Shown in pieces: positions 7,391-55,688 of a stretch of DNA of 64,000 bases; the first letter of the stretch is position 1, and the number at the start of each line of letters is the position of its first letter. Source of the stretch: Candidatus Acetothermia bacterium. GTDB lineage: Bacteria; Bipolaricaulota; Bipolaricaulia; RBG-16-55-9; JANLFV01. The stretch lies in contig JANLFV010000005.1 in assembly GCA_024653345.1 (NCBI GenBank), forward strand, positions 64,790-128,789, written 5' to 3'. Below the pieces are notes generated by a model, which searched no databases, was not told the origin of the DNA, and saw only the letters and a list, made by a program, of their open reading frames with translations. A program made the position numbers and the translations under genes.

Positions 7391-9048
7391 CGGGCGATAC
7401 AGTATCTGACCCCATTCCCTCTTCTTAGCAGGGCATTCCCCGCGGCCTGCCCAGCGAAGACCGGCCTCCCGGAGAGGTCCCAGACTCGGACGGCGATCGA
7501 CTCGATCCCTCGGCCTTGGACGATAAAGCGCGAGCCGGTGAAGGCCACCTTCTCGACCGTCAGGGCAGCTGTGCTTGGAGCCAGCCCAGCGGCCGCGGCG
7601 GCGGAGCCGCTCACAGGCGTCCCGCCGATCCAGAGCGCGATCAGCTCCAGCATCTTGCTATCGTCGATCGTCTGGCCCCCGGTGTTCGGGACCGCCTCGC
7701 CGTTGATCCAGAACGAGATCGCGCGGAGGATCTCCTGGTCGCCGATCACCAGGTCGGGATTGGCCGCACCCGGCGGATCGCCCGGGACGAGTGCCGCGAT
7801 CGCCTGCTCGATCGAGAGCCCTCCCGGCGGAGGAGGCCCGCCGACGGTGACGGTGAAGGTCCAAGCGGCCATCCCGAGGTGGCCGGAGTTGTCCGCGGCC
7901 CAAAGCTGGACGAAGACCTCGCCCCTGGCCAGCGAGAGCCCGAGCTGGCTGAGGTTCACGCTGAACTTCTCCCCGTCCCAGCCCACGCCGCGGTCGCCCT
8001 TCCGGAACTCCCTCAGCCCCTGGGCGTCCCAGAGCCTCAAGAGAAGCGTCTCGGGATTCACGCCGCTCCCGGGATCGAGGACCCGAGCGGAGACCGCCGG
8101 CTGAGCAATTCCCACCGGCCCAAAAGGCTGGAGCTCGAAGAACTCCGGCGGGGCGAGGTCCGAGACCTGCCCCACGGTCAGCTCGCCATTGACCAGCAGG
8201 GGGTGCATCAGCCGGCCCTGGTCGTCGAACATGCTCACCACCTCGACCTTCAGGGCGCTCTCGCCGAGCAGGACGCCCTTGAATTGGACCCGCCCGAGCA
8301 CGATCCCCGCATCGCCCTGCTTCACGATGTTCTCATCGTCGCTGGCTGAGAAGTCGATGGAGTTCTTGTCTACGGCCACCTGGGCCTGGGCCTGCCCGGC
8401 GAAGGCGATGAACACCACGCCGAGGATGTCGGCGAGATCGCCCTCAGCCAGGCTGACCCGGACCCGGTAGCTCGAGAGGCCCTCGGGGGCCTCAGTGAGG
8501 ATGACCGGCACTTCCACGACCGCGCCGGCATAGACGCTGTCGCTCCCTCCCACAACTGCCGGGAGCCCAGGGGTGAGGTTGCTATAGACTCGCAACTCCC
8601 CAGCCTGGGTGGCGACATCGAAGGGATTCCCCAGGTCGTCCCTCATCTCTCCGACCAGGACCTCTAACGAGCTCTGGCCCGTGAGCGTCCCGCGGAGACG
8701 CAGCACGGCCAGCGTAATCCCCGAGGCCCCGGCCTCGACCTGATGGAGCCGATCGACCGATTTGATCTTAACGCTATCTCTGTCCGGAGCGAGCTCCACC
8801 CGCGCGTCCTCGCGGAAGGTCTCGGGGAAGGAGAGGGCCTCGACCTCCCCGACCACACCGGTCCCAAGCCGGACCGTAAGCTCGAACTCTGCCAGCCCCC
8901 GAGGAGCGCTGTTTAGGATCACCGCTAGCTCCGTCGCCGCACCGAGCGGGGACTGCCCCTGGCCGATGGTCACCGTCTGGGCTAGGCCAACGCCAGCCGC
9001 TGAGGAGACAGCCAGCAATGCCAATAGGATGCCAGTGAAGGCTCTCAT
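7360..9048 (-). CDS. secreted cohesin-like surface protein, 3' end truncated by IS110
   Basis: A signal peptide (MRAFTGILLALLAVSSAAGVGLAQ) precedes two related beta-sandwich modules resembling cohesin domains, an Ig-like module, and a duplicated dockerin-like helical segment (IGDQEILRAISFWINGEAVP and IDDSKMLELIALWIGGTPV). Last comes the beginning of a FlgD-Ig-like C-terminal domain (VRVWDLSGRPVFAGQAAGNAL). The paralogue at 9264-13250 continues with about 35 more residues. Here the frame instead runs into IS110-derived sequence after residue about 540. ATG 9048 has a TAGGAGGTGG site. Whether the truncated protein is still sorted is unknown. Confidence 0.65.
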   Translation of the reverse strand: MRAFTGILLALLAVSSAAGVGLAQTVTIGQGQSPLGAATELAVILNSAPRGLAEFELTVRLGTGVVGEVEALSFPETFREDARVELAPDRDSVKIKSVDRLHQVEAGASGITLAVLRLRGTLTGQSSLEVLVGEMRDDLGNPFDVATQAGELRVYSNLTPGLPAVVGGSDSVYAGAVVEVPVILTEAPEGLSSYRVRVSLAEGDLADILGVVFIAFAGQAQAQVAVDKNSIDFSASDDENIVKQGDAGIVLGRVQFKGVLLGESALKVEVVSMFDDQGRLMHPLLVNGELTVGQVSDLAPPEFFELQPFGPVGIAQPAVSARVLDPGSGVNPETLLLRLWDAQGLREFRKGDRGVGWDGEKFSVNLSQLGLSLARGEVFVQLWAADNSGHLGMAAWTFTVTVGGPPPPGGLSIEQAIAALVPGDPPGAANPDLVIGDQEILRAISFWINGEAVPNTGGQTIDDSKMLELIALWIGGTPVSGSAAAAAGLAPSTAALTVEKVAFTGSRFIVQGRGIESIAVRVWDLSGRPVFAGQAAGNALLRRGNGVRYCIARQVDASPGVR

Positions 9049-9182: not shown

Positions 9183-9210
9183 GAGCCCCCGAGCTTCTGC
9201 TCGGGGGCTC
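9183..9210 (-). terminator. Rho-independent terminator of the surface locus
   Basis: A perfect 12-bp stem, GAGCCCCCGAGC / GCTCGGGGGCTC, with a TTCT loop. It is followed on the minus strand by TAGTTTTCC. It lies about 55 bases after the stop of the 9264-13250 gene. Confidence 0.85.
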
Positions 9211-9263: not shown

Positions 9264-12200
9264 CTACCTCAAGACGACCAACTTGCGGACCTCGGTCTGC
9301 ACGACCGCTCCGTCCGCGCCACGGACGGTCACGGCGTAGAGATAGACGCCGTTGGCCCAGGCTCCGCCGTCCACCGCCAGGGCATTCCCCGTGGCCTTCC
9401 CGGAGAAGACCAAGCTCCCGGCGAGGTTCCAGACCCTAGCCTCGACGGAGGCCACGCCGACGCCCTCGACCACGAACCTCGAGCCGGTGAACTTGACCGC
9501 GTCCACCTTGAGGGCCACCGGCGCACCGGCGACCTCAATAGAGAGCGGTCTCACCGCACCGGAACCGTCGCTCGTGGTGTAGCTCCCGGCGATGGTGTAG
9601 CTCCCCGGGGCGGCGTCGGCGGGGACGGTGACCTTATAGCTCACGGTCCCGGCCCCGAGGACGAGCCACTTGGTCTCGCTCGGCTTGTAGAAGGCCGAGC
9701 TGTTCTCCAGTGGGGTGATCGTCCAGCCGGCCGGCAGGCTCTCGGTCAGCAGCAGCCCCTTCACCTCGCCGTTGAAAGCCACGGTGACGGTGAAGGCCTC
9801 CCCAGGCGCCACCCTGGAGGGTGACGCCTGGTGGTTGATCTCTACTGCTGACCTAGTGGCGAAAAAACTGCCGAGCCACTCGAAGAAGTTGAAGCCCTTC
9901 TTCTGGGGCTGAGCCGACTGGCCCGCGGCCATCGCGACCGGGGTCCCGTCGATCCACATCCCGACGAGCTGGAGGATCTTGGCATCGTCGATCTTCAGCC
10001 CGTCGGTCCCGGGGACGATGGTGTCCTCGACCCAGAGCTCGACCGCCCAGGTGATGTCCGGGTCCTCGATGATCGTCGGGCTCCCGGAGTGCTGGGCCAC
10101 GGCCTGCTCAATGGTGAGCATGATCGGCCCGGTGACATGGACATTGATCGTCTTGCTATCGTCATTGGTCTTCAGCTCGACGGTGAAGTCACCGCCCTCG
10201 GTGAACTTGTAGTCGAAGGTCACCGTCGTCGCCGCTGAGGGGTTGATCGTCTTAGTGACGGACTTGGTCCCGACAACCGTCCCGCCCTTGCTCACGATGA
10301 GGGTGATCTCCTGGGTCCCCTCTTCCGTCCCGGTGTTCTGGATCTCGGCGATATACTGGACAGCCACGCCCTTGTCCGCGCTGGTCGGGCCGGTGAAGGA
10401 CTTGATGGTGAACATGTAGCTCGGGCAGATCAAGTCGCTGGAGCAGACCGGCTTGTCCAGGAACGGCTTGTAGTTGACCTTATCAGTCACGCGGTCGCCG
10501 ATCCCGTTGGGGTTCGTGCTGTGCTTCGGCCCGGAGGGCTCGCCCCACCAGTTGTTGGTGGCGTCGATCGACTCACCCGGCTGGAGCGCGCTCGCATCGA
10601 CCCCGAACTTCTCGTTCCGGGCGATGTTGTTCTGGTTGATCGCGTTGTCCATGACCTTGCGGACCTCGACTCCGACAGCATTCCTCCGGATCGCATTGTC
10701 ATGGATCTTCGTCCCGGTAGAGTTGAGCAGCACGCCGGTCCCGAGGCCATTGGCCCCGTGGATCTGGTTCTCGGAGACCTCGATCCCCGTCCCGCGCTGG
10801 ATGACATCGATCGAGACGCCGATCCCGTTCCCGACGAGCTTGTTGCCCTTGATGATCCCAGTGATCAAGTCCCGGCCAGCATAGAGGGCGATTCCCTCCT
10901 TAGTGTTATTCTCGGCAGTGTTGCCTTCGATTGTGATGTTCTGGCCGATCTGCCGCCCGGCCGCGCCCGTCCGGATGCCCGCGTAGTTGCCGCTCGCGGT
11001 GTTGTTCCGGACGGTGATGTTGCTCAGGTCCTCGTTGGCGTTGACCTGGACCCCGTCCCCGACGGTGTCGCGGTTCCGGTCGTTCCCGGCGAAGTGGCTG
11101 TTCTCGACCAGGATGTTGCTCACATTCCGGGTCCCGCTCACCTGGACGCCGTGGTCATTGTTCGTGTCGCAGGTCGTCGGGTCGATGGTCACATTCCGGA
11201 CAGAGTCACCGGCGATCAGGATCCCCGAGCCGCGCCCGACCGCGCCGCGGGTGCCGTTGAAGTTGAAGGCCCCGTCCTTGATCTTGACGGTGTCGATGTC
11301 CCCGGCGACGACGGTAGCGGCTTCAGGCTTACCACCGGCGCTGGCGTCGGACTCCAGCCGGAGGCCGAAGGTCCCGTTGCCGTTCCCGGTCGTGTTCGTG
11401 ACGGTGACCATGCTCTGGTCGCCGTTGTCAGTGGCCAGCGCGATCCCATCGCCGTTGTCTCCAACATCATAGGTATTCCCGCCAATTCCGGGTTCGGCCT
11501 GGCTCTCGATCGCGGTGACATTCGTGAAGGTGATCTCGCGGATGTCGCCGCTGCGGACTGTAGGCAAGTCAGTATCGGTCTCCAGGCGGAAGCCGCCGAG
11601 GAAGTTCCTTGTGGCGTTCTCGTTCTCGAAGCTGATCCGGGAGATCTCCGCCCGCTCGGTCCGCATGAAGACCCCGAACCCGAGGCCGGATGAGCCAGCA
11701 GGGGCTGCTCCCGGTGCTGCAGAGGGGTTCCCACCGTTCTCGCGATAGTCGTTCCCGGAGAAGGTGATGCTCTCGATCCGGAAGCCTTCGCCCCACGCCA
11801 CAGCACTACCATTGATTGTGGAGTCATGGTAGACGCCGAAGCCATCGCCGTAGGGCGCTTCAATTACCAGTCCAATGTAGTCACCCACGCCGTTGTTGTG
11901 GAACTTGTTGTTGGTGACGGTGGAGCGGTCGAAGTCGCCGTTGTTGGCGATGCAGACGCCGTTGTTGAAGTTCTGGCGGAAGTCGTTCCCGTCCAAGAGC
12001 AGGCTCTCTACGCGCCCGTTGGCCTCGATGGCCAAGCCATTCCCGTGACGGCAGGGGACGAGCGAGGACGCGGGCGGGAAGGTCTCGTCCCAGCCGCGGT
12101 TGCTGTTGATCGCGTTGTTGACGATCTTCAGGTCGCGGACATCTGTGATATTCTGTGTTATGTAGATGCCGTTACCTTGTCCTGTCCCTGGAACGGCAGC

Positions 12201-45082: not shown

Positions 45083-46105
45083 TTAGGGGACGAGGACGAC
45101 CTTCCCGAAGACCTTCCGCTCCTCCAAGAGCCTTTGGGCCTCCGCGGCCTCCCGGAGGGGCATGACCCTGTGGATCACCGGCTTGAGCCTCCCGGCCCAG
45201 AGCAGCCTCAAGACCTCGTGCAGCTCCTTCGTCGAGGCCATCGTCGAGCCTATAATGCGGAGTTGGTTCCAGAAGATCAGCCGGATCTCGGTCTGGGGGT
45301 TCGGCCCGCTCGTGGCCCCGTAGGTCACGAGCCTCCCGTTCTTGGCCAGGCTCCCCAGGCTCTTGACCCAGGTCTCCGCGCCGATCGAGTCGAGCACGAC
45401 ATCGACGCCCCGCCTGTTCGTGAGCCGGCGGATTTCCTTATCGAACTCGACCTCTTTATAGTTGATTAAGAAGTCGGCCCCCAGGCGCTTCGCGCCCTCG
45501 AGCTTCTCCTCGCTCGAGGCGGTCACGAAGACCCGCGCTCCCACGAGCTTGGCGAGCTGGATCGCGGCCGTGGCCACCCCGCCCCCCGCGCCCAAGATCA
45601 AGACATCCTCGCCGGGGCGCAAGCCCGCTCGGGAGATGAGCGCCCGCCAGGCGGTCATGAAGACCAAGGGCGCGGCCGCGGCCTCCTCGAAGGGGACATG
45701 TTCCGGCAGCGGGATAACATTTTTAGCCGGGACCTTCACGAGCTCGGCGTAGCCCCCGTCGGTCTGCTCACCGAGGATCTTGTAATGGATGCAGAGGCTG
45801 TCCTCGCCCGCGAGGCAGTATTCGCACTTACCGCAGGAGAGATTGGGGTTGGCGATCACCCGCTGGCCCCGCTCGAGCCCCTGGACCCGCTCGCCCACCC
45901 TCTCGATGGTCCCGGCCACATCAGCCCCGGAGATGTGAGGGAGGTTCACCCCCGGGAGGCCGCGCCTCACCCAGATGTCCAGAAAATTCACGGAGGTGGC
46001 CCTCACCCGGATAAGGACCTCCTCCGGGCCGATCACGGGCTCGGGGACCTCCTCGTATCTCAGGACGCTAAGATCGCCGTGCTCATGGAAGACGACCGCC
46101 TTCAT
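45083..46105 (-). CDS. medium-chain alcohol dehydrogenase/quinone oxidoreductase family
   Basis: A 340-residue MDR protein. MKAVVFHEHGDLSVLRYEEV, the structural zinc lobe with four cysteines (CGKCEYCLAGEDSLC), the Rossmann motif LGAGGGVATAAIQLAKLVGA, and LLEERKVFGKVVL. The catalytic-zinc position shows HISGADVAGTIERVG rather than the usual GHE, so the class is uncertain between Zn-dependent ADH and quinone reductase. ATG 46105 has GAGGTG 6 bases upstream and is preferred over GTG 46114. Confidence 0.83.
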   Translation of the reverse strand: MKAVVFHEHGDLSVLRYEEVPEPVIGPEEVLIRVRATSVNFLDIWVRRGLPGVNLPHISGADVAGTIERVGERVQGLERGQRVIANPNLSCGKCEYCLAGEDSLCIHYKILGEQTDGGYAELVKVPAKNVIPLPEHVPFEEAAAAPLVFMTAWRALISRAGLRPGEDVLILGAGGGVATAAIQLAKLVGARVFVTASSEEKLEGAKRLGADFLINYKEVEFDKEIRRLTNRRGVDVVLDSIGAETWVKSLGSLAKNGRLVTYGATSGPNPQTEIRLIFWNQLRIIGSTMASTKELHEVLRLLWAGRLKPVIHRVMPLREAAEAQRLLEERKVFGKVVLVP

Positions 46106-46133
46106 CGGGATCACCTCATAGTCTCGCTGGCCG

Positions 46134-46163
46134 ATGATAGGCCGGCTCGAGCTCGAAGATCAA
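46134..46163 (-). promoter_or_regulatory. promoter of the MDR dehydrogenase
   Basis: Minus-strand TTGATC (46158-46163), 18-base spacer, TATCAT (46134-46139). Confidence 0.45.
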
Positions 46164-46203
46164 ATGGCCTGACCGGCCGATTGGCCTATCGCCACATGGG
46201 TTG

Positions 46204-46212
46204 TGCTATAAT
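46204..46212 (+). promoter_or_regulatory. extended -10 promoter (TGCTATAAT)
   Basis: TG-C-TATAAT lies about 68 bases upstream of the protease-FGE gene. No clear -35 box. Confidence 0.5.
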
Positions 46213-46279
46213 CTGGCTGGCCGAAAGCTCAAGGTGATCTGGTGCTCGAGCCAGGAGCAAGAAGAGGAGGGAGGAAACT

Positions 46280-47830
46280 ATGAAACGGGGAGAGGCCAAC
46301 TTCAAGCGAGTGTCATCGTCCATCCTGCGTAGAGCGCTGCTCGGAGCCCTCTTGGCCGCGCTCATCGTCGGCTCCGCGGCGACGGTCGTGCTCACGCAGA
46401 CTGACATCTCCGCGATCGTCGAGCGGGTCCGGCCCGCGGTCGTGGAGATCGTGACCAACAAGGGCCAAGAGAGCGGGTTCATCATCACCGCGGACGGGGC
46501 GGTGCTGACCGCCTACCATGTGGTCAAGGGGGCGACCAGCATCAGGGTCCTCTTGCCGAGCGGCTCGAGCTACAGCGCCTGGGTGGAGAAATATGATGAG
46601 ACCTACACCAGCGGCGGCAGTGATGTGGCCCTGCTCCGGATCAGCGCGAGCGGCCTCCCCACGGTGAGCTTGGGAGATTCCGATACGGTCAAGATCGGGC
46701 AATCCATCATCGTCATGGGCTATCCCCTGGACATGGGGTTCAGCGTCACCAGGGGGATTATCAGCAGCCTAGTCGACTTCGGCGGGGGCCGGAAGGTCTT
46801 TGTGATCGACGCAGCCGTGAACCCCGGCAACAGCGGCGGGCTGCTCTTGAACGACCAGGGCCAGGTGATCGGGATCGTCTTCGGCAAGGCCAATGTCCCC
46901 GGGATCACGGTCGAGGGGATCAACTTCGCCACGCCCATAAACACCGCGCGGAGGGAGTTGGGGCTGAGCATGCCCGCGCCGGAGCAGCCGCCGACTACCC
47001 CGAGACCGGCAGGAATGGTGCTCATCCCCGCAGGGAGCTTCCAGATGGGGGACAGGTTCAGCGAGGGCGACTCCGACGAGCGGCCGGTGCACACGGTCTA
47101 TGTGAGCGCGTTCTATATGGACAAATACGAGGTGACCAAGGCCCTGTGGGACGAGGTGGCGCGCTGGGCTGCAGCTCATGGATACGACATCATGCCCGAG
47201 TGCGGCTCTGGGAAGGGGCCGGACCATCCGGTCTACGATGTCACCTGGTATGAGGTAGTGAAGTGGCTCAATGCCCGGAGCGAGAAGGAGGGGTTGACGG
47301 CCTGCTACTACACGGACAGCACGCAGCGGATGGTCTACCGGACGGGGAACCTGAACCTGTCGAATGATGCCGTGAAGTGGAGCGGGTGTGGTTATCGGCT
47401 GCCGACGGAGGCGGAGTGGGAGAAGGCGGCGCGCGGGGGCTGCGAGGGCCATCGCTTCCCCTGGCGCGATACGGACACGATCCAGCACAGCCGGGCGAAC
47501 TACTACAGCAGCTCCGACTACAGCTATGACACGAGCCCGACGCGGGGTTATCACCCCAGCTACGCCACGGGTGATTACCCGTATACCAGTCCGGTGGGGA
47601 GCTTTGCGGCAAACGGGTATGGGCTCTACGACATCGCGGGGAACGTGTGGGAGTGGGTCTGGGACCGGTATGACCGAAGCTACTACTCATCCTCGCCCGG
47701 GACTGATCCTCGGGGTCCTAATGGAGGCTCGTCCCGCGTGGTACGCGGCGGCAGTTGGGGCTACGATGCGCCCGCTGCCGGGTTGCGTATCGCGGCCACA
47801 GCACGCCCGGCGGCAGCGGCCACTTCATAG
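46280..47830 (+). CDS. DegP-type serine protease fused to FGE/lectin-fold variable domain (DGR-type target)
   Basis: 516 residues. An N-terminal membrane/signal segment (about residues 18-40) is followed by a trypsin-like S1C domain (about 42-235) with triad His in TAYHVVKG, Asp in SDVALLRIS and Ser in NPGNSGGLLL; no PDZ is seen. A linker leads to a formylglycine-generating-enzyme/C-type-lectin-fold domain (about 247-516: MVLIPAGSFQMGD, RLPTEAEWEKAARGG, YGLYDIAGNVWEWVWD, VVRGGSW). The C-terminus enters a hypervariable cassette. One base missing there shifts the frame and ends the protein early, before GFRAVRPAGQ, which is intact in the next frame. GGAGGGAGG precedes the ATG. Confidence 0.82.
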   Translation: MKRGEANFKRVSSSILRRALLGALLAALIVGSAATVVLTQTDISAIVERVRPAVVEIVTNKGQESGFIITADGAVLTAYHVVKGATSIRVLLPSGSSYSAWVEKYDETYTSGGSDVALLRISASGLPTVSLGDSDTVKIGQSIIVMGYPLDMGFSVTRGIISSLVDFGGGRKVFVIDAAVNPGNSGGLLLNDQGQVIGIVFGKANVPGITVEGINFATPINTARRELGLSMPAPEQPPTTPRPAGMVLIPAGSFQMGDRFSEGDSDERPVHTVYVSAFYMDKYEVTKALWDEVARWAAAHGYDIMPECGSGKGPDHPVYDVTWYEVVKWLNARSEKEGLTACYYTDSTQRMVYRTGNLNLSNDAVKWSGCGYRLPTEAEWEKAARGGCEGHRFPWRDTDTIQHSRANYYSSSDYSYDTSPTRGYHPSYATGDYPYTSPVGSFAANGYGLYDIAGNVWEWVWDRYDRSYYSSSPGTDPRGPNGGSSRVVRGGSWGYDAPAAGLRIAATARPAAAATS

Positions 47831-47871
47831 GCTTCCGGGCTGTGCGGCCTGCAGGTCAGTGAGGTGAGCTG
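47742..47871 (+). other. variable region 1 (VR1) with flanking conserved ends, DGR-type
   Basis: Identical 17-nt 5' flank (47742-47758, TACGCGGCGGCAGTTGG), hypervariable core (47759-47829), and a 42-nt 3' flank (47830-47871, beginning GGCTTCCGGGCTGTGCGG) identical to VR2. With one base restored the core reads SWGYDAPACRVAYRGHSTPG and then GSGHFIGFR, aligned to SWFIIASYCQVATRGGGAPG in VR2. The fixed residues are A, C, VA, RG and PG; the rest vary. Confidence 0.75.
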
Positions 47872-47892
47872 GAGTGAGGCGGAGCGGCTGGT

Positions 47893-47948
47893 TTCAGGTC
47901 GAGCAAGCGGAGCGGTCCCGTCCCGGAGGGCGGGATGCGAGACCTGAA
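47893..47948 (+). other. post-VR1 nested hairpin
   Basis: The outer stem TTCAGGTC / GACCTGAA (47893-47900 with 47941-47948) encloses the inner hairpin TCCCG-CCC GGA GGG-CGGGA (47916-47935, one bulged T). The same structure follows VR2 with a compensated base pair. The position 3' of the variable region matches hairpins at known DGR target sites. Confidence 0.6.
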
Positions 47949-47989
47949 GCGGTCGCGGAGCCGGCTGTTGGATCGTGAGCAAAGCGCCG

Positions 47990-48040
47990 CTCCCCCTCCC
48001 ATCGGATGGGAGAGGGAAGCCCACAGGGCCGGGTGAGGGC
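47990..48040 (+). repeat. dispersed palindromic repeat copy
   Basis: CTCCCCCTCCCATCGGATGG + GAGAGGG followed by GGGCCGGGTGAGGGC. The remaining gap to 48194 also has a GGCAGGTGTGCCTGCC stretch (48057 onward) that recurs as GGGCAGGTGTGCTTGCC at 48859. Confidence 0.5.
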
Positions 48041-48194
48041 CGCCGGGGCTGGCCGTCGGGCAGGTGTGCCTGCCATGACGGCAGGACACGCCCCAACGAG
48101 ATTGCGGCCTTTGATCGGCAGTGAAGGATGCAGAGCGCTCGTCCATCCCTTATAATGATTGTGCCGTCTCTAGGATCAACGGAAGGAGTAAGTG

Positions 48195-48392
48195 ATGGCA
48201 CGTCAAGCAAGTAAAACAGTCACATCCGAAGAGTCTCCTGCTGAGGTCGAGCGCAAGCTGAAAGCCCTCAAGGAAGTAGCCGGGTTGCTGAGCGACTTGT
48301 CTCCCGAGGGAATGAGGGCGTTCTTGGAAGCCGCCAAACGCAGGCCACTCTTCGAGGATGGGCCTTCCGAGAAATGCCAGACTACCTCTTAG
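48195..48392 (+). CDS. putative antitoxin upstream of a PIN toxin
   Basis: A 65-residue soluble, charged, helical protein (PAEVERKLKALKEVAGLLSD, LSPEGMRAFLEAAKRRPLF). No DNA-binding motif is obvious. Its 3' end overlaps the VapC start by 19 bases, the standard antitoxin-toxin order. GGAAGGAG precedes ATG 48195, and TATAAT at 48151-48156 is a possible -10 box. Confidence 0.65.
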   Translation: MARQASKTVTSEESPAEVERKLKALKEVAGLLSDLSPEGMRAFLEAAKRRPLFEDGPSEKCQTTS

Positions 48393-48778
48393 ATACGAAC
48401 ATTCTCATCGAGATCTTAAGAAACAGCCCCACCGTTCTGGCACATATGAGAGCGGCCATCACTGCCGGACGTGATGTGCAGATCAACGCCCTCAGCTATT
48501 ACGAGACCCGACGCGGCCTGCTTAACACTCTTAGAGCCGATAAGCTCCGCAAGTTCGACGCCTTTTGCCGGGTATTCGGGATCGTCCATCTCGATCAAGC
48601 AGCGCTGGATCGAGCCAGCGAAATCTACGCTGATTTGGAGAAGAAGGGCGAACTGATCGAGGATGCTGACATTCTCATCGCCGGGATGGCACTGGTCAAC
48701 CACGCTGTGCTGGTGACCGATGACATAAGCCATTTCAAGCGCGTGGTTGGCTTGGCGCTCGAAAACTGGATGAAATAG
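48374..48778 (+). CDS. vapC: VapC-type PIN-domain ribonuclease toxin
   Basis: A 134-residue PIN domain: first acidic cluster YLLDTNILIEILR, second acid in NALSYYETRRGL, and the C-terminal acids in LIEDADILIAGMA and LVTDDISHF. It is a predicted endoribonuclease acting on tRNA, rRNA or mRNA. Paired with the small upstream ORF. Confidence 0.88.
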   Translation: MPDYLLDTNILIEILRNSPTVLAHMRAAITAGRDVQINALSYYETRRGLLNTLRADKLRKFDAFCRVFGIVHLDQAALDRASEIYADLEKKGELIEDADILIAGMALVNHAVLVTDDISHFKRVVGLALENWMK

Positions 48779-48901
48779 GAATCGCTCTCGCCTCAAGTAG
48801 TCAGGATCGCACGGTCAATCCCGGCGATCACCCCTGGAACCGGCCTGGGGTGCGCGATGGGCAGGTGTGCTTGCCGTAAACGGGCAAGGCCTTGATATCC
48901 C

Positions 48902-48930
48902 TTGCCCCACTTTACTTCATCAACTATAAT
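48902..48930 (+). promoter_or_regulatory. promoter of the RelBE-like pair
   Basis: TTGCCC (48902-48907), 17-base spacer, TATAAT (48925-48930), about 36 bases before the antitoxin ATG. Confidence 0.6.
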
Positions 48931-48966
48931 GCTCAACGGACGATCCGACACAAGGTGAGGATGGCG

Positions 48967-49176
48967 ATGCTGAAGATCAAGAAGCGCTACGTCGTCAATG
49001 AGCGCAACGAGCCCGTGGCCGTGCAGCTTGATCTGGAAACCTTCGCCAAGATCGAGCGCCTGCTGGAAGACTATGCCCTGGGGCAAAGCATAAGAGCAGT
49101 CAAAGACGAACGCTCCCTGGATTTGAGAGAGGCCCAGCGGCGCTATGCGCGCCTGAAGAAAACCGGCAATGAATGA
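48967..49176 (+). CDS. RelB/Phd-type antitoxin
   Basis: A 69-residue protein, MLKIKKRYVVNERNEPVAVQ followed by LDLETFAKIERLLEDYALGQ and an Arg/Glu-rich C-terminal helix. It matches Phd/YefM- or RelB-like antitoxins that begin with a short beta-strand DNA-binding unit. AAGGTGAGG is 6 bases before ATG 48967, while the upstream ATG 48961 touches that site. Its stop overlaps the toxin start (ATGA). Confidence 0.75.
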   Translation: MLKIKKRYVVNERNEPVAVQLDLETFAKIERLLEDYALGQSIRAVKDERSLDLREAQRRYARLKKTGNE

Positions 49177-49451
49177 ACTGGCAAGTTGTCTATAAGCCCA
49201 CCTTCCTTAGGGAGTTGGCACGACTCCCAGCGGAGGTGCGCGCACGGGTTGAGACCTTTGCTTTTGAGGTGATGCCCAGGACAACCAATCCCTATGCTCT
49301 GTCAGGCGTCGAGAAGCTCAAAGGGTATCGGGAATATTACAAAGTGCGTTTCGGAGACTATCGTATTGGCCTCAGGTTCGACAAGAAAGCCAAGACAATC
49401 GAATTCTGCAGAGTCTTACATCGCCGTGATCTGTATCGTTACTTCCCTTGA
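49173..49451 (+). CDS. RelE/ParE-family toxin
   Basis: A 92-residue RelE-fold protein: WQVVYKPTFLRELARLPAEV, RTTNPYALSGVEKLKGYREY, the core YKVRFGDYRIGLRFD, and the C-terminal VLHRRDLYRYFP. RelE members cut mRNA on the ribosome and ParE members poison gyrase; the C-terminal HRRDLYR favours RelE. Translationally coupled to the antitoxin. Confidence 0.87.
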   Translation: MNWQVVYKPTFLRELARLPAEVRARVETFAFEVMPRTTNPYALSGVEKLKGYREYYKVRFGDYRIGLRFDKKAKTIEFCRVLHRRDLYRYFP

Positions 49452-49457
49452 TATAAT
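49449..49457 (+). promoter_or_regulatory. extended -10 promoter of mnmA (TGATATAAT)
   Basis: The box ends 9 bases before ATG 49467 and sits on the last codon and stop of the RelE-like gene. The mRNA would be essentially leaderless. Confidence 0.55.
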
Positions 49458-49466
49458 CTCGCTGTG

Positions 49467-50534
49467 ATGCGCGTCCTGGTGGCGATGAGCGGTGGGGTCG
49501 ATTCAAGTGTCGCGGCCCTCCTGCTCAAGAGGGAAGGGCACGAGGTCCTCGGCGCGACCCTGAACCTCTGGAGCTACGCCGGGCGGCTCGAACCCTACAA
49601 CAACTGCTGCTCCCTCGAGGTCGCGGCCGTAGCCAAGCAGTTGGGCATCGAGCACCATTTCCTAGATTATGGCCGGCTCTTCGAGCGGGAGGTCGTCCGC
49701 CGGACGATTCAGAAATATCTGCGCGGGCGGACCCCGAACCCCTGCATCTGGTGCAACGCGCTCGTCCGGTTCCCCGCGCTGTTGGCCGAGGCCGAGCGGC
49801 TGGGCTGCGACTACCTCGCCACCGGGCACTATGCCCGGGTCATCAAAGAGAACGGAGTTCATCACCTCCTCCGCGGCCGCGACCTCGAGAAGGACCAGTC
49901 TTACTTCCTCTACCGGCTCACCCAAAGGGAGCTCGCCAAGCTCATCTTCCCTGTCGGGGATTATCTCAAGGAGGAGGTCTTCACCATTGCCAAGGAGTCC
50001 GGCCTCCTGGTCAAGCCCCGTGAGAGCCAGGACCTTTGCTTCGTCCCTGATAACGACTATCGCCGGTTCTTGCTGGACCACTCCAGGGACGGGATCCGGC
50101 CGGGCGAGATCGTCGATACCTCGGGCCGGGTCCTGGGCCGGCATGAGGGGCTCCCATTCTATACCATCGGCCAGCGGCGGGGCCTGGGGCTCGCCTCGGG
50201 CGAGCGGCTCTATGTCCTGGCCCTCGAGCCCGAGCGGAATAGGCTGATCGTCGGCCCGGAGGAGGCCCTCTACTCCCGCGGCCTGATCGCCTCGGAGGTC
50301 AATTGGCTCGGCGGCCCGCCCGGCGCGGGCGAGCTTGAGGTCGAGGTCAAGGTCCGCTATCGCACCCCTCCGGCGAGGGCGCGGGTCGAGCCCCTCGGCG
50401 ACGGCCGGGCGCGGGTCATCTTCGCCGAGCCGCAGCGGGCCATCACCCTCGGCCAGGCGGCCGTCTTCTATCGGGACGAGCGGGTCCTCGGCGGTGGGGT
50501 GATCGAGAGAATCTTGAGCGATGCTGAGGCTTAG
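49467..50534 (+). CDS. mnmA: tRNA-specific 2-thiouridylase
   Basis: 355 residues. PP-loop VAMSGGVDSSVAALLL, catalytic cysteines in TPNPCIWCN and SQDLCFV, LATGHYARV, and GRHEGLPFYTIGQRRGLG. It thiolates U34 of Lys, Glu and Gln tRNAs. ATG 49467 is chosen over GTG 49464. The upstream gene's TGATATAAT leaves almost no leader. The 3' end overlaps the ABC ATPase by 14 bases. Confidence 0.94.
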   Translation: MRVLVAMSGGVDSSVAALLLKREGHEVLGATLNLWSYAGRLEPYNNCCSLEVAAVAKQLGIEHHFLDYGRLFEREVVRRTIQKYLRGRTPNPCIWCNALVRFPALLAEAERLGCDYLATGHYARVIKENGVHHLLRGRDLEKDQSYFLYRLTQRELAKLIFPVGDYLKEEVFTIAKESGLLVKPRESQDLCFVPDNDYRRFLLDHSRDGIRPGEIVDTSGRVLGRHEGLPFYTIGQRRGLGLASGERLYVLALEPERNRLIVGPEEALYSRGLIASEVNWLGGPPGAGELEVEVKVRYRTPPARARVEPLGDGRARVIFAEPQRAITLGQAAVFYRDERVLGGGVIERILSDAEA

Positions 50535-51273
50535 CGGGATCGAGAAGGGCATCCTCCGGAATGGCCTCCCCCTCAAGGTCCTCGCCGGGCTCGACCTCGA
50601 GGTCGGGGAGGGGGAGTTCGTCTCGCTCCTCGGGCCGAGCGGCTGCGGGAAGACGACCCTACTCAACATCGTCGCCGGGCTCATCCGGCCCGACTCGGGG
50701 CGGATCTTCTTCAACGGGCGGGAGGTCTCGAGCTGCCGCGGCCATGTAGCCTACATGCAGCAAGACGACCTTCTCTTGCCCTGGCGGACGGCCCTGGAGA
50801 ACGCCATTCTCGGGCCGGAGCTGAAGGGGGCCGATCTCCACCGGGCACGGCACGAGGCCGAGGGGCTCTTCCACCGCTTCGGGCTCGAAGGCTTCGAGGA
50901 CCACTACCCCGCGGAGCTCTCGGGCGGGATGCGCCAGCGGGTGGCCCTGATCCGGACCTTGCTCACCGGGAAGAGGCTCTTCCTCCTCGATGAGCCCTTC
51001 GGCTCGCTCGATGCCATGACCCGCTCCGTCCTCCACCGCTACCTCCTCGGGGTCTTTGAGGAGTTCGAGAAGACGATCCTCTTCGTCACCCACGACCTGG
51101 AGGAGGCCCTCCTCCTCTCCGATCGGGTCTATCTTCTCACCGCCCGGCCCGCCCGGGTCAAGGCCCTCCTCGAGGTCCCGCTCCCCAGGCCGCGGGACCG
51201 CGGAGAGCCCAGGTTCATCCGGCTGGAGCGGGAGCTCGAGCGCTTGGTCCAGGAGGAGCTCCATGTGGCCTAA
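50521..51273 (+). CDS. ABC transporter ATP-binding protein (nitrate/sulfonate/pyrimidine type)
   Basis: 250 residues. Walker A LLGPSGCGKTTLLN, Q-loop YMQQDDLLLPWRT, signature LSGGMRQRVALIRTLL, Walker B LFLLDEPFGSLDAMT and H-loop VTHDLEEALLLSDRV. It is of the SsuB/TauB/ThiZ importer group. It overlaps mnmA and the permease gene. No substrate-binding protein is encoded next to it, so the substrate is unknown. Confidence 0.9.
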   Translation: MLRLSGIEKGILRNGLPLKVLAGLDLEVGEGEFVSLLGPSGCGKTTLLNIVAGLIRPDSGRIFFNGREVSSCRGHVAYMQQDDLLLPWRTALENAILGPELKGADLHRARHEAEGLFHRFGLEGFEDHYPAELSGGMRQRVALIRTLLTGKRLFLLDEPFGSLDAMTRSVLHRYLLGVFEEFEKTILFVTHDLEEALLLSDRVYLLTARPARVKALLEVPLPRPRDRGEPRFIRLERELERLVQEELHVA

Positions 51274-52021
51274 GGCTCGAGATTACCTCCCTCCGCTCGG
51301 GCTCCTCCTCGCCCTCTTTGGGCTCTGGGAGCTGGTGGCCTGGCGGCTCGAATTGCCCTTCATCCTCCCCGCCCCGAGCGCGATCTTCATCAGGATGGCC
51401 TCGGACTGGCTCCTCCTCCTCCGCCATGCCTTAGTGACGCTTGAGGAGGTCCTCTTGGGGCTCGCGATCGCCTTTATTTTCGGGCTCGCCCTGGCCTTGC
51501 TCATCTTCCACTCCAAGACCCTCGAGCGGGCCATCTATCCCCTGGTCATCGCCGTCCAGAATGTCCCGGTCTTCGCGATCGCCCCGATCCTGGTCCTCTG
51601 GCTCGGCTATGGCCTCTTCTCGAAGGTGGCCGTGGCCGCGTTGATCATCTTCTTCCCGCTGGTGGTGAACACCGTCGACGGGCTTCGCTCGACCGATCGC
51701 GGGCTCGTGGACTTATTCAGGGTGCTTGAGGCCAGCCGGGGCCAGCTCCTCCTCAAGCTCCATTTGCCCCACGCACTACCGTTCATCCTCTCCGGCTGCA
51801 AGGTCGGGGTCACCCTCGCGGTCGTCGGCGCTGTCATTGGCGAGTGGGTCGGCTCGAACGCCGGCTTAGGCTTCCTGATGGTCCAGGCGAACGCCCGGCT
51901 CAAGATTGATCTTCTATTTGCGGCCATCTTCTGGCTCGCGGCCCTGAGCATCGCGCTCTTCGGCCTCGTCTCAGCCATCGAGCGGGCGGCGCTGCCGTGG
52001 CGGAGGGTTGGACAGGGATGA
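51263..52021 (+). CDS. ABC transporter permease (SsuC/TauC/ThiX type)
   Basis: 252 residues with about six membrane helices: LPPLGLLLALFGLWELVAW, LPFILPAPSAIFIRM, ALVTLEEVLLGLAIAFIFGL, and the coupling EAA-loop region (LRSTDRGLVDLFRVLEASRG...LPHALPFILSG) followed by VVGAVIGEWVGSNAGLGFLM. ATG 51263 with AGGAGG is the start; the longer frame is read-through of the ATPase gene. It lacks an adjacent binding protein. Confidence 0.9.
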   Translation: MWPKARDYLPPLGLLLALFGLWELVAWRLELPFILPAPSAIFIRMASDWLLLLRHALVTLEEVLLGLAIAFIFGLALALLIFHSKTLERAIYPLVIAVQNVPVFAIAPILVLWLGYGLFSKVAVAALIIFFPLVVNTVDGLRSTDRGLVDLFRVLEASRGQLLLKLHLPHALPFILSGCKVGVTLAVVGAVIGEWVGSNAGLGFLMVQANARLKIDLLFAAIFWLAALSIALFGLVSAIERAALPWRRVGQG

Positions 52022-52040
52022 GCAGAAGCGAGCTGCTACT

Positions 52041-52070
52041 TTGTCAGGGAAGAGGAGAGTGTGCTATGAT
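52041..52070 (+). promoter_or_regulatory. promoter upstream of the second FGE-fold gene
   Basis: TTGTCA (52041-52046), 18-base spacer, TATGAT (52065-52070) with TGC before it. About 165 bases of leader follow with no recognised structure. Confidence 0.55.
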
Positions 52071-52238
52071 GACTTTGTCGCCCGTTCTGGCTGAAGTGGG
52101 CCGGGAGAGGGCCAGGCAGAGAGGGTTGAAGCGCTAGCGGTAAAGTTCATCCCTTTGTGGCGGCAGACTTAAGACACAACTGGAGTGAAGCTCCCTTCCT
52201 TCCCCGCCCGAGCCCGTTGGGCCGCAAAAGGAGGTTCT

Positions 52239-52473
52239 ATGCGCATCGCAAAGCTTATCGGGACCGGCGCGGCCTTGGGGCTTCTAGCCCTTCTCATCTT
52301 AGCTGCGGGGGAATGGCAGACAAAGTGGGTTAGCCCAGGGTTGCACCGTTAATTCTGTCATCTGTTTGGCTGAGGGCAGTTGGCAGGAGAACCTCACGAT
52401 CAGAACGGACAACCTGATCATGCGTGGGCAGGGACCCAGCCGGACCTTCGTGACTGGTTCGTTCCTGATTTAA
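52239..52473 (+). pseudogene. broken N-terminal part of the second FGE-fold gene
   Basis: AAAAGGAGG precedes ATG 52239, which encodes a signal peptide (MRIAKLIGTGAALGLLALLI, LAAG). At the GGGGG run 52307-52311 the frame must shift by one base to continue as GLAQGCTVNSVICLAEGSWQ and ENLTIRTDNLIMRGQGPSRT, the start of a right-handed beta-helix. That frame meets TAA at 52471-52473 and then runs on in frame into the FGE domain. Two lesions, or sequencing errors, separate the signal from the rest. Confidence 0.55.
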
Positions 52474-53316
52474 GTGGCCGGCCAATTCACTGTGGAAAGC
52501 CTGACTCTCCAGAGTAGTGTGGCCGGGGCAGCGCCGTCAGGGATGGTGCTGATCCCGGCGGGGAGCTTCGAGATGGGGGACAGCTTCGGCGAGGGGGACC
52601 CCGACGAGCGGCCCGTGCACAAGGTCTTTGTGAGCGCGTTCTACATGGACAAGTATGAGGTGACCAAGGCCCTGTGGGACGAGGTGGCCAACTGGGCGGC
52701 GGTGCACGGCTACGACATCGGGCCGAGTAGCGGTTCAGGAAATGGGGCAAACCACCCGGTCACCGACGTGTCGTGGTATGAGGCGGTGAAATGGGCCAAT
52801 GCGCGTAGTGAGAGGGAAGGCTTGACGCCGTGCTACTACACCAGTTCAAGCCAATCCACGGTCTACCGGACGGGGGGTGTGGATGTGCCGATAGAGTGCG
52901 TGAAGTGGAGTGGGTGCGGGTGTCGGTTGCCGACGGAGGCGGAGTGGGAGAAGGCCGCAAGAGGCGGCTTATCAGGCCAGCGCTACCCGTGGGGCAATGA
53001 CATCGACTGTGCGAGAGCCAATTACTACCCTTGCGTTGGTAACACGACCCCGGTGGGGAGCTACCCGCCTAATGGGTATGGGCTCTACGACATGGCAGGG
53101 AACGTGTGGGAGTGGGTGTGGGACTGGCACGACTCGGGTTATTACTCGCGTTCGCCGGAGGCTGACCCCCGTGGCCCGGCGTCGGGCTCGTTCCGCGTGT
53201 TACGCGGCGGCAGTTGGTTCATCATCGCGTCCTACTGCCAGGTTGCGACTCGCGGCGGCGGCGCGCCCGGCCGCGCCTGCATGGGCTTCCGGGCTGTGCG
53301 GCCTGCAGGTCAGTGA
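52474..53316 (+). CDS. FGE/C-type-lectin-fold protein with hypervariable C-terminus (DGR-type target)
   Basis: 280 residues from GTG 52474. A short beta-helix-like lead (FTVESLTLQSSVAG) is followed by an FGE-sulfatase-fold domain (MVLIPAGSFEMGD, ERPVHKVFVSAFYMDKYEVT, RLPTEAEWEKAARGG, YGLYDMAGNVWEWVWDW, VLRGGSW). The C-terminal cassette is intact in frame and ends GFRAVRPAGQ. It is the paralogue of the domain at 47.0-47.8 kb. In DGR target proteins this fold displays variable ligand-binding residues rather than acting as an enzyme. Export depends on the damaged 5' part, so it may be inactive. Confidence 0.75.
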   Translation: MAGQFTVESLTLQSSVAGAAPSGMVLIPAGSFEMGDSFGEGDPDERPVHKVFVSAFYMDKYEVTKALWDEVANWAAVHGYDIGPSSGSGNGANHPVTDVSWYEAVKWANARSEREGLTPCYYTSSSQSTVYRTGGVDVPIECVKWSGCGCRLPTEAEWEKAARGGLSGQRYPWGNDIDCARANYYPCVGNTTPVGSYPPNGYGLYDMAGNVWEWVWDWHDSGYYSRSPEADPRGPASGSFRVLRGGSWFIIASYCQVATRGGGAPGRACMGFRAVRPAGQ

Positions 53317-53325
53317 GGTGAGCTG
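53201..53325 (+). other. variable region 2 (VR2), DGR-type
   Basis: The 5' flank 53201-53217 is identical to that of VR1, the core is 53218-53283, and the 3' flank 53284-53325 is identical over 42 nt. Against VR1 the core has a two-codon gap and changes in 14 codons, with the third base kept in nearly all of them. Confidence 0.75.
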
Positions 53326-53340
53326 AGGCGGAGCGGCGGA

Positions 53341-53395
53341 TTCCGGTCGAGCCAGCGGAGCGGTCCCGCCCGGAGGGCGGGAGGCGAGACCGGAA
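53341..53395 (+). other. post-VR2 nested hairpin
   Basis: Outer stem TTCCGGTC / GACCGGAA (53341-53348 with 53388-53395). Perfect inner hairpin TCCCGCCC GGA GGGCGGGA (53364-53382). The fourth outer pair is C-G here and A-T after VR1, a compensatory change. Confidence 0.65.
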
Positions 53396-53440
53396 GCGGA
53401 CGCGGAGCTGGGGCTTTCGCCTCGTGAGGACAGCGCCCTA

Positions 53441-53582
53441 GATAGGTGCACAGAATAATTGAACAGGGGGCCACCTGTCGTGGCATGATGGGTCATTCCT
53501 CTTGCCCGGCCCTGGGCAGGTCTACCGGGAGCTGGAGCGCTCCCCGCGCTAAGGGCCCCCTGTCCAATCATCTTGTGCTATC
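53441..53582 (+). mobile_element. IS630-derived miniature element (MITE-like)
   Basis: 142 bp flanked by TA (53439-53440 and 53583-53584). The first about 55 bp match the left end of the IS630 element at 5911, including GATAGGTGCACAGAATAATT. The last about 80 bp match its right end, including the transposase tail codons GQVYRELERSP and TGTCCAATCATCTTGTGC. The transposase interior is deleted. Confidence 0.85.
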
Positions 53583-53679
53583 TAAATAAGTGAAGAGGCT
53601 CTCTAACATCATCGGATAAGCAGAAGAGAAGAGGTGGGTTATCCCGACTCTACCCAGCCCTTGTGGTTGAGCAAAGCGC

Positions 53680-53709
53680 GGGGGCCGGGCGGGACCCCGC
53701 TCGGCCCCC
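53680..53709 (-). terminator. GC-rich hairpin downstream of the S74 lipoprotein gene
   Basis: GGGGGCCG (53680-53687) pairs with CGGCCCCC (53702-53709) around further complementary bases. It lies about 65 bases after the stop at 53775. There is no U-run on the minus strand. Confidence 0.4.
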
Positions 53710-53774
53710 ACGACATCAATGCGCGCTCCTCCGAGAGACTGAGTTCCCTTGCCTAACAAGCTTAACCCGAAGGC

Positions 53775-55688
53775 CTATTTCTCTCCGGCCAACTCCGAGA
53801 CCATCCGCTCCAGCGCCTCCAGCCGGGATCGCAAGTCCTCGACCTCTTGGGTCAGGCGCGCAATCTGCTCGTCCTTCTCCAGGCTGAGCTGGTAGAGGGC
53901 CTGGATGGAGATGAGCGCGATCCCATCAGCGTCGCTGCTGTTGATGTAGCGCTCGCTCTCCCCCAGGCCGAAGGCGGCGTAGAAGTCCTGGGCCATCGGC
54001 CCGATGTGCCGGATCGAGGGGTCCTGGGACCTCATGTTCCACTCGCTGATCGGGATCTGGCTCAGCCTCTCGAGGATCAGCCGCCCGTCGACGGGACTGA
54101 AGTTCTCCTTCAGCTCGCGGTCGCTGATCGCGGACCAGGCGTTCGAGCCAGGGGTGAGGTAAACTCCGGCCGTAGGTTTGCCTGTCCCATCGACTGCGGA
54201 GACGAACCGCGCCCCGCCGGTGGAGCGGACGCTGAATTCGTTGGCTGCCGTGGACTCGAAATAGAAGCCAGTTAGGTGATCAGCCCACACGAAGCTCCCA
54301 TCATGATTTGCTTTGGCTTGGGTTCCGGCGGCAAAGGATGCTACGCCAGCAGCGAGGTTCCCTGAGCCCCCACAAGCTGTGGATGCTTCACCATTGGCAG
54401 CATTGCCAGTGCCGCCGCAGACTGTAGCGACTTCTCCGTTCGTTCTGTTCCCCGAGCCTCCACTTATGGTAGATACTGAACCGATGGCAATATTGGCATC
54501 ACCGCCGCAGATTGTTGCCAAGACTCCGCTCACTGTGTTCTTCGCGCCCCCACCTATTGTCCCCCAATGAGCTGTCACCTCGTTGTAGCATGGAGGGTCC
54601 ACACAGATAGCTGCCCCACCCCCGGCGATTGTGGCCCCTTCGACCCCCGGATCGACGCTGTTCAGGCGGAACCCGCCGATGATGTTCGGCGAGGCAGCAG
54701 GCTCAATCCGCAGTGCCCTGTAGTTGTTCACCCGGATCTCCAGAGCCACATTGTCGGTGGTGCCGAGGAAGTTGGTGGTTGGGTCGGTGCCGGCATTACC
54801 GGTGAGCGACCAGGCTCCGCCGGTGGCCACTGGCTCACAAGTCACGGTCCCGTCGGCGTTGATGACCCGGATCGCGTTCCCCGAGGAGCATGAGCCGGTA
54901 ACTCGGCGCTGGATCTGTGTCGTATCCACATCCTCTGCTGCGATGCTGCCGTTGACGATCTTGCTCGAGTCCACCGAGTTCCCGGCGAGCATGGCGAGCG
55001 TGATCCCGCCATTGGCCACGCTGAAGGTCGTGCCGACGAGGCTGAGGCCCGCGCCCGCGGAGTAGGTGGTGTCGCTGTCTGCCGAACAAATCCAGTCGGT
55101 GCCATTCCACTTCAGGACTTGGCCGGTGGAGCAGCCGGTGAGAAGGCTCAGGGTTACATCCCCGCTCGTCCCGCCCCCACTCAACCCCAACCCGGCGAGC
55201 ACGGCGGTGATGTCGCCCCCGCCCATGGGCTGGCAGGCCACCGTCCCGTCCTCGCCGATCTCCCGGATGGCATTCCCTACTGAGCAAGTGCCCGTCACCC
55301 GCCGCTGGACCTCCGCGGTGTTCACATCTGCAGCGCCGAGGCTCCCATCCACGACCTTGCCCGAGTTCACCGAGTTCGCGCCCAGTTTGCTGGCAGTGAC
55401 CGATCCGTCGGCGATCGCTGCCTCCTTCACGCAACCAGTGCAGACGATCTCGCTCTCCAGCTTGAGGTTCCCCACCACATGGAGCTTCTCCGCGGGGTTG
55501 GCTGTCCCGATCCCAACTCGATCGGTGATCGTGGTCAGCCGGACCACCGTCCCATCATCCGTCCAGCCACCACCCACTGCGGTCCCGCCCCCTGCGGGCG
55601 GCGCGGGATACTCGCAGGAGACCAAGATAGCCCCCAGGACGAGGATCAGGCCGAAGGCCAGAAAGAGCCGAAAAGCCGTGCCTCTCAT
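53775..55688 (-). CDS. surface lipoprotein with YadA-head-like repeats and S74 chaperone domain
   Basis: 637 residues from ATG 55688 (AAAGGAG upstream; the longer frame lacks a site). Lipobox near LGAILVSC. Two copies of a module [18 protein letters not shown] / [18 protein letters not shown] follow, then trimeric-autotransporter head-like repeats ([38 protein letters not shown]). The C-terminal intramolecular chaperone of the peptidase S74 family ([20 protein letters not shown] ... [17 protein letters not shown]) and a coiled coil close the protein. S74 domains trimerise beta-helical fibres and cut themselves off at the Ser of the SDRELKEN region. A phage-tail-fibre-like surface appendage is inferred. 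Confidence 0.8.

Follow-up and report, generated by a model that had tools for sequence, protein, structure and literature searches.

Background

Experimental knowledge of target recognition by DGRs comes mainly from one phage system. In BPP-1, a hairpin or cruciform increases the efficiency of homing; the structure of its stem is required, not the sequence of the stem, and the sequence of the loop matters (PMC3240598). Deletion of the stem-loop strongly reduces retrohoming, and recent reconstitution work points to a stem-loop that holds the target open while the cDNA pairs (PMC12875486). In RecQ-type helicases, HRDC domains work on DNA duplexes and junctions; such domains have been discussed for DGRs, in a text that leaves hairpins and inverted repeats unmentioned (PMC4891356).

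The present analysis concerns two elements in a window of 64,000 nucleotides, the whole stretch of DNA analysed, from the genome of Candidatus Acetothermia bacterium (G000, GCA_024653345.1; 1.71 Mb, 31 contigs, 92% complete). By analogy with BPP-1, these elements are probably, at roughly 85%, target-side recognition structures of a DGR, marking a variable region (VR) for mutagenic homing. They share with DGR target hairpins in general a structured inverted repeat 3' of the VR, its absence from the flank of the template repeat (TR), and compensatory changes. They depart from the BPP-1 type, in which one stem of 7-10 bp carries a GRNA loop of 4 nt (PMC3240598), in their 3-nt GGA loops and nested structure.

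Variable regions and target genes

The closest named relatives of the FGE protein are Bipolaricaulota, and in both target genes the VR is C-terminal in a C-type-lectin/FGE-like domain (PF03781), as is usual for DGR target genes. The features are as follows, in window positions.

46280-47830, + strand: target gene 1 (ORF), in which a trypsin-like protease domain (PF13365) precedes and is fused to an FGE-sulfatase (C-type-lectin-like) domain (PF03781)
47734-47855, + strand: VR1, approximate limits (adenine test), with a 1-nt deletion near 47771
52474-53316, + strand: target gene 2 (ORF), an FGE-sulfatase-fold protein (PF03781, E 8e-58) with VR2 at its C-terminus
53193-53309, + strand: VR2, approximate limits (adenine test)
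53411-53439, + strand: remnant of an alternative FGE-gene 3' end, GGGCTTTCGCCTCGTGAGGACAGCGCC (96-97% over 27-29 nt)

With the TRs of related DGRs as reference, substitutions in VR1 fall on 18 of 24 template-A sites and on 5 of the 61 remaining sites (p 2e-9), and those in VR2 on 18 of 21 and 5 of 60, respectively. The two VRs differ from each other at 15/21 template-adenine positions and at 2/60 others (p 8e-10). By this adenine test both are genuine DGR variable regions. The deletion in VR1 puts its C-terminal part out of frame and cuts the frame of target gene 1 short, the reading in the other frame going on as ...CRVAYRGHSTPGGSGHFIGFRAVRPAGQ; VR2 is 6 nt shorter than related template repeats and stays in frame. 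Between the two target genes, at 48374-49451, lie a PIN-domain gene and a RelB/ParE-type toxin-antitoxin pair.

In the G000 assembly, no DGR-type RT was found (neither the RVT_1 family nor the related RT gave a match), no template repeat (the TR query matches just VR1 and VR2) and no HRDC accessory (no relative of the HRDC gene of L016). The same three components were likewise not found in G069, which is 78% complete, and an RT is present in the relatives G062, G031, L057 and L153. The window is therefore not classed as a complete DGR, and its VRs may be orphan or trans targets: they appear either to be orphaned or to be served by machinery outside the assembly. A variable region in L033 is followed, 59 nt on, by an adenine-rich template-like copy (pair 8722-8794 / 8854-8926), and no RT relative was found in the genome carrying both.

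Structure of the two elements

The distance from the end of the VR to the element is about 30-40 nt. The 8-bp stems reported by the first-pass annotation after each VR were recovered at the same positions, and around them the following parts can be distinguished.

47893-47900, + strand: element 1 outer stem, 5' arm TTCAGGTC (stem search; DNA folding)
47903-47905, + strand: element 1 second helix, GCA pairing with TGC at 47936-47938 (folding, alignment)
47907-47913, + strand: element 1 mini-hairpin GC-GGA-GC
47916-47935, + strand: element 1 inner hairpin TCCCGTCCC-GGA-GGGCGGGA, GGA loop at 47925-47927, one T more than in VR2
47941-47948, + strand: element 1 outer stem, 3' arm GACCTGAA (stem search; DNA folding)
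53341-53348, + strand: element 2 outer stem, 5' arm TTCCGGTC (stem search; DNA folding)
53351-53353, + strand: element 2 second helix, GCC pairing with GGC at 53383-53385 (folding)
53355-53361, + strand: element 2 mini-hairpin GC-GGA-GC
53364-53382, + strand: element 2 inner hairpin TCCCGCCC-GGA-GGGCGGGA, GGA loop at 53372-53374
53388-53395, + strand: element 2 outer stem, 3' arm GACCGGAA (stem search; DNA folding)

Each element thus holds a second GGA hairpin, the GC-GGA-GC in its 5' spacer. The GC hairpin with a GGA loop described earlier inside both stems is perfect after VR2, where an 8-bp stem closes a GGA triloop, whereas after VR1 it is imperfect, one additional T (CCCGTCCC) forming a bulge or a T.G mismatch, so that VR2 is the cleaner copy. 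Together with the 1-nt deletion in VR1, this extra T suggests decay of target 1, or a sequencing error. The compensated replacement of A-T (VR1) by C-G (VR2) noted before is real and falls on the fourth pair of the 8-bp stem; a further both-sided change had been overlooked, in the second helix, which reads GCA/TGC in VR1 and GCC/GGC in VR2 (again A-T to C-G). As substitutions between the window copies are few, covariation between these two copies rests on two pairs.

With DNA parameters, folding gave z = -4.8 for the VR2 element and -3.4 for that of VR1, with 0/200 shuffles folding as well, and z ranged from -3.4 to -5.8 across the window copies, G069 and L057; RNA folding of the element was also good. 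An Rfam scan of 46000-54500 returned a single match, attributed to chance.

Isolated 8-bp stems at this spacing begin at 119 positions of the window, whose GC content is 66%, so that an 8-bp stem alone proves little; what is above chance is the combination of stem and hairpin, its position and its conservation. Moreover, the flanks of VR1 and VR2 are duplicates of each other. Given such duplication and such frequent stems, the elements could be paralogous GC-rich flanks that have simply inherited a functionless inverted repeat. This is hardly credible, since two pairs changed on both sides, conservation of the element extends to G069 and to a second phylum, and the held-out flanks described below lie far above the dinucleotide-shuffled expectation, a result that simple inheritance does not predict.

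Copies in related genomes

A search with the flank through 100 genomes of the class yielded two further copies, in G069 and G062. The G069 copy has an 11-bp outer stem (GATTCAGGTCA/TGACCTGAATC) enclosing the same inner hairpin as the window copies. In G062 the element stands directly between the VR gene and a run of HRDC gene, RT and template repeat, and 16 of the 18 VR/TR differences are at adenines. The same architecture was found in L153 and in L057, a DGR of the Kiritimatiellae, where the outer stem is again of 11 bp (GTGTCCGGTCG/CGACCGGACAC). L057 also carries, at 9698-11300, many near-identical short inserts within and between genes, the RT reading frame included; they encode repeated EAVPPGGG/EGRPPCRP-like peptides and form a dispersed repeat family in which the frame is kept.

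The outer stems of VR1, VR2, G069, L057 and L153 were aligned by hand, because the inner hairpins slip out of register when MAFFT includes the Kiritimatiellae copy. Of 55 cells, 52 are pairable (50 Watson-Crick and 2 G.T), and both-sided changes occur at 5 of the 11 positions. The additional copies thus keep the fold, substitutions preserve pairing more often than they break it, and the selection on structure proposed in the first-pass annotation is supported. The branched form was found in two bacterial phyla, accompanying a single class of DGRs.

The search also delimited where the element is absent. Weak DNA matches of the flank in the class members L017-L031 were set aside as mostly chance matches within genes, and viral contigs held one distant RT, without the element. 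No element follows the VRs of the FGE genes L032, L033, L035 and L036, which come from the nearest named relatives. In G000 it was found after the two VRs only, all other matches being chance matches of 15-30 nt.

Copies lacking the stems would speak against such selection; overall this is not what was seen, but one genome nearly identical to G062 is without the element. G031 differs from G062 by 3 mismatches in 1772 nt over HRDC, RT and TR (99.8%), its VR is diversified differently, and it lacks exactly the element of about 56 nt, the boundaries of which are CGCGG direct repeats. The presence/absence sites are L130 (G031), minus strand near 9188, and L111 (G062), about 2328-2384. Any one of three events would account for the absence, namely slippage deletion of a palindrome, an insertion, or misassembly, and in BPP-1 weak homing continues without the hairpin (PMC3240598, PMC12875486).

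This presence or absence between direct repeats is what would be expected of a palindromic mobile element (REP/MITE-like) that happened to insert beside these genes. The gene ends point the same way. The GGGCTTTCGCCTCGTGAGGACAGCGCC-type end (GFRLVRTAP-stop) directly closes the FGE gene in L032 and L035, without a hairpin element, and a second FGE-gene 3' end of this kind stands behind the element in window VR2 and also in G069; the element, together with the GFRAVRPAGQ end, seems to have been inserted in front of an older gene end. Chance mobility is nevertheless very improbable, as the G000 copies are confined to the two VR flanks and, across phyla, the sequence diverges while structure and position remain constant.

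Flanks of variable regions and template repeats

The survey was extended to RT relatives in the phylum of L057, at loci where a TR/VR pair with adenine-biased differences was identifiable. It comprised 38 VR flanks, the window and G069 copies included, with expectations from dinucleotide shuffles. GGA-triloop hairpins with stems of at least 2 bp numbered 48 (10 expected), and GCGGAGC occurred 30 times (2.4 expected). GNA triloops on stems of at least 5 bp were present in 13 of the 38 VR flanks, against 0.5 expected, and in 2 of 34 TR flanks. Flanks of TRs showed no excess of either GGA hairpins (9, with 7 expected) or GCGGAGC (0, with 0.9 expected). The loops are strongly oriented, 64 GGA loops lying on the sense (coding) strand and 3 on the antisense strand, or 17 and 0 when stems of at least 4 bp are considered.

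The recurrent plan comprises an outer stem, a short helix of the GCC/GGC type and a pair of GGA hairpins, one of which is long and the other often just GC-GGA-GC. A perfect outer stem of 7-9 bp is by itself non-specific, being equally common after TRs; only its combination with GGA hairpins is specific to VR flanks. A GAGGGACGA motif is conserved in several VR flanks (e.g. L164, L042, L171 and L175), often between complementary bases, and is likely a variant of the GGA hairpin, in which G-C and two G.A mismatches would close the GGA triloop.

A prediction was fixed beforehand for held-out genomes: loci whose RT is at least 60% identical to that of G062 should have two GGA hairpins enclosed by an outer stem on the 3' side of the VR, and no such structure past the TR. 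A search of 346 genomes from the class to which G379 belongs gave two new loci above this identity, L186 (RT 69%) and L187 (RT 67%), and both have an outer stem around two GGA hairpins. In L187 the outer stem of 11 pairs contains one T.G mismatch, so that it passes a perfect-stem filter of 6 bp and not of 7 bp, and it agrees with the written prediction only if the mismatch is allowed. Over the whole held-out set, in which most RTs are less similar to that of G062 than the threshold, 6 of 10 VR flanks passed at 7 bp, with about 0.01 expected from shuffles. The full design at 7 bp followed 0 of 43 TRs, as expected of a target-side signal.

The same data bear on a role in RNA, as an intrinsic terminator or 3' mRNA stabiliser of FGE genes unconnected with homing, which the position just past the stop codons and the good RNA fold would suit. 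Such a role is very improbable: the stem is not followed by a T-tract (GAAGCGGACGCGG), the element is specific to VR flanks and absent after TRs, the preference for GGA loops and the conservation of the outer stem extend over different target genes, and the G062 copy sits in a run of closely packed DGR genes.

Accessory type

When accessories were typed via Pfam and similarity, a GGA hairpin or the related GAGGGACGA loop was found in 28 of 35 HRDC-type flanks and in 0 of 5 Avd-type flanks (p 0.001). Seven of the 35 HRDC-type flanks are without GGA hairpins, and in one of these, L156, the VR end was probably set too early. The Avd-type flanks L039, L065 and L085 have one plain hairpin each, with loops GCA, GTAA or GTA. 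RT ancestry covaries with accessory type among the sampled loci, which makes the association with HRDC a lead and not a demonstrated dependence. Given the action of HRDC domains on junctions, the HRDC protein would be the natural candidate reader of a branched target. A tentative and somewhat doubtful extension is that HRDC-type DGRs use a distinct signal, a branched DNA with two GGA triloops read by a junction-binding HRDC protein, in place of the single hairpin of the Avd type, and that the recognition systems co-evolved.

Proposed function

The homing-hairpin reading, already put forward from the window alone, gains support from the adenine test, the HRDC/RT/TR loci of relatives, the absence after TRs and, by analogy, the published work on BPP-1 (PMC3240598, PMC12875486). 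The position, the restriction to the VR side, the retention of structure over sequence and the purine loop on the sense strand fit the role of the BPP-1 hairpin, and the element may well promote homing as that hairpin does.

On the sense strand, the outer stem, the GCC/GGC-type helix and the two GGA-loop hairpins would fold into a branched hairpin of three-way form or, where the duplex is supercoiled, into a branched cruciform. This structure would keep the target open or recruit the homing complex, in this DGR class RT, template RNA and the HRDC-domain protein, and mutagenised cDNA would then replace the VR. In DNA, a d(GNA) triloop is unusually stable when a C-G pair closes it, a property that would speak for action as DNA; the element presumably acts in that form, its branch being read by HRDC or the RT.

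Should the branched signal go with HRDC accessories in cellular genomes, a testable role for the HRDC protein would follow. It would also help to locate DGR targets distant from any RT, as in G000, and would supply a further tag that can be transplanted for directed evolution in vivo.

Comparison with known systems

Integron attC sites are, like the elements described here, folded single-strand recombination sites 3' of genes. Their core is RYYYAAC/GTTRRRY, which is absent from the element, and an attC site was therefore rejected.

Among DGRs, the hairpins of the nanoarchaeal DUSEL4 system have trinucleotide GRA loops, which GGA fits; unlike the window elements, they lie inside the target gene of an archaeal host, and the available part of that source describes no enclosing stem or second hairpin (PMC4372165). 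HRDC-accessory DGRs, e.g. that of Treponema denticola, have the HRDC gene beside the RT in cellular genomes (PMC4891356), and the DGR relatives found in this analysis are of this HRDC-accessory type. Unlike in the Treponema denticola type, an RT and HRDC of G000's own were not found in its assembly.

With BPP-1 and phage-related DGRs (PMC3240598), the elements share a GC-rich inverted repeat just 3' of the VR in which structure and not sequence is kept. As in the BPP-1 type, the sense-strand loop is conserved and purine-rich, and the distance from the VR is 4-34 bp there and about 30-40 here. Unlike BPP-1, whose accessory is Avd, the window elements belong to an HRDC-type DGR and consist of an outer stem around two GGA-triloop hairpins. 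Single DGR hairpins with GRNA tetraloops or GRA triloops have been described, and the open literature searched, a scope outside which lies the large DGR survey (DOI 10.1093/nar/gkx1150), contains no nested two-hairpin form. The basic role of the DGR target hairpin is known; its branched, triloop-based form seems to be new and apparently undescribed.
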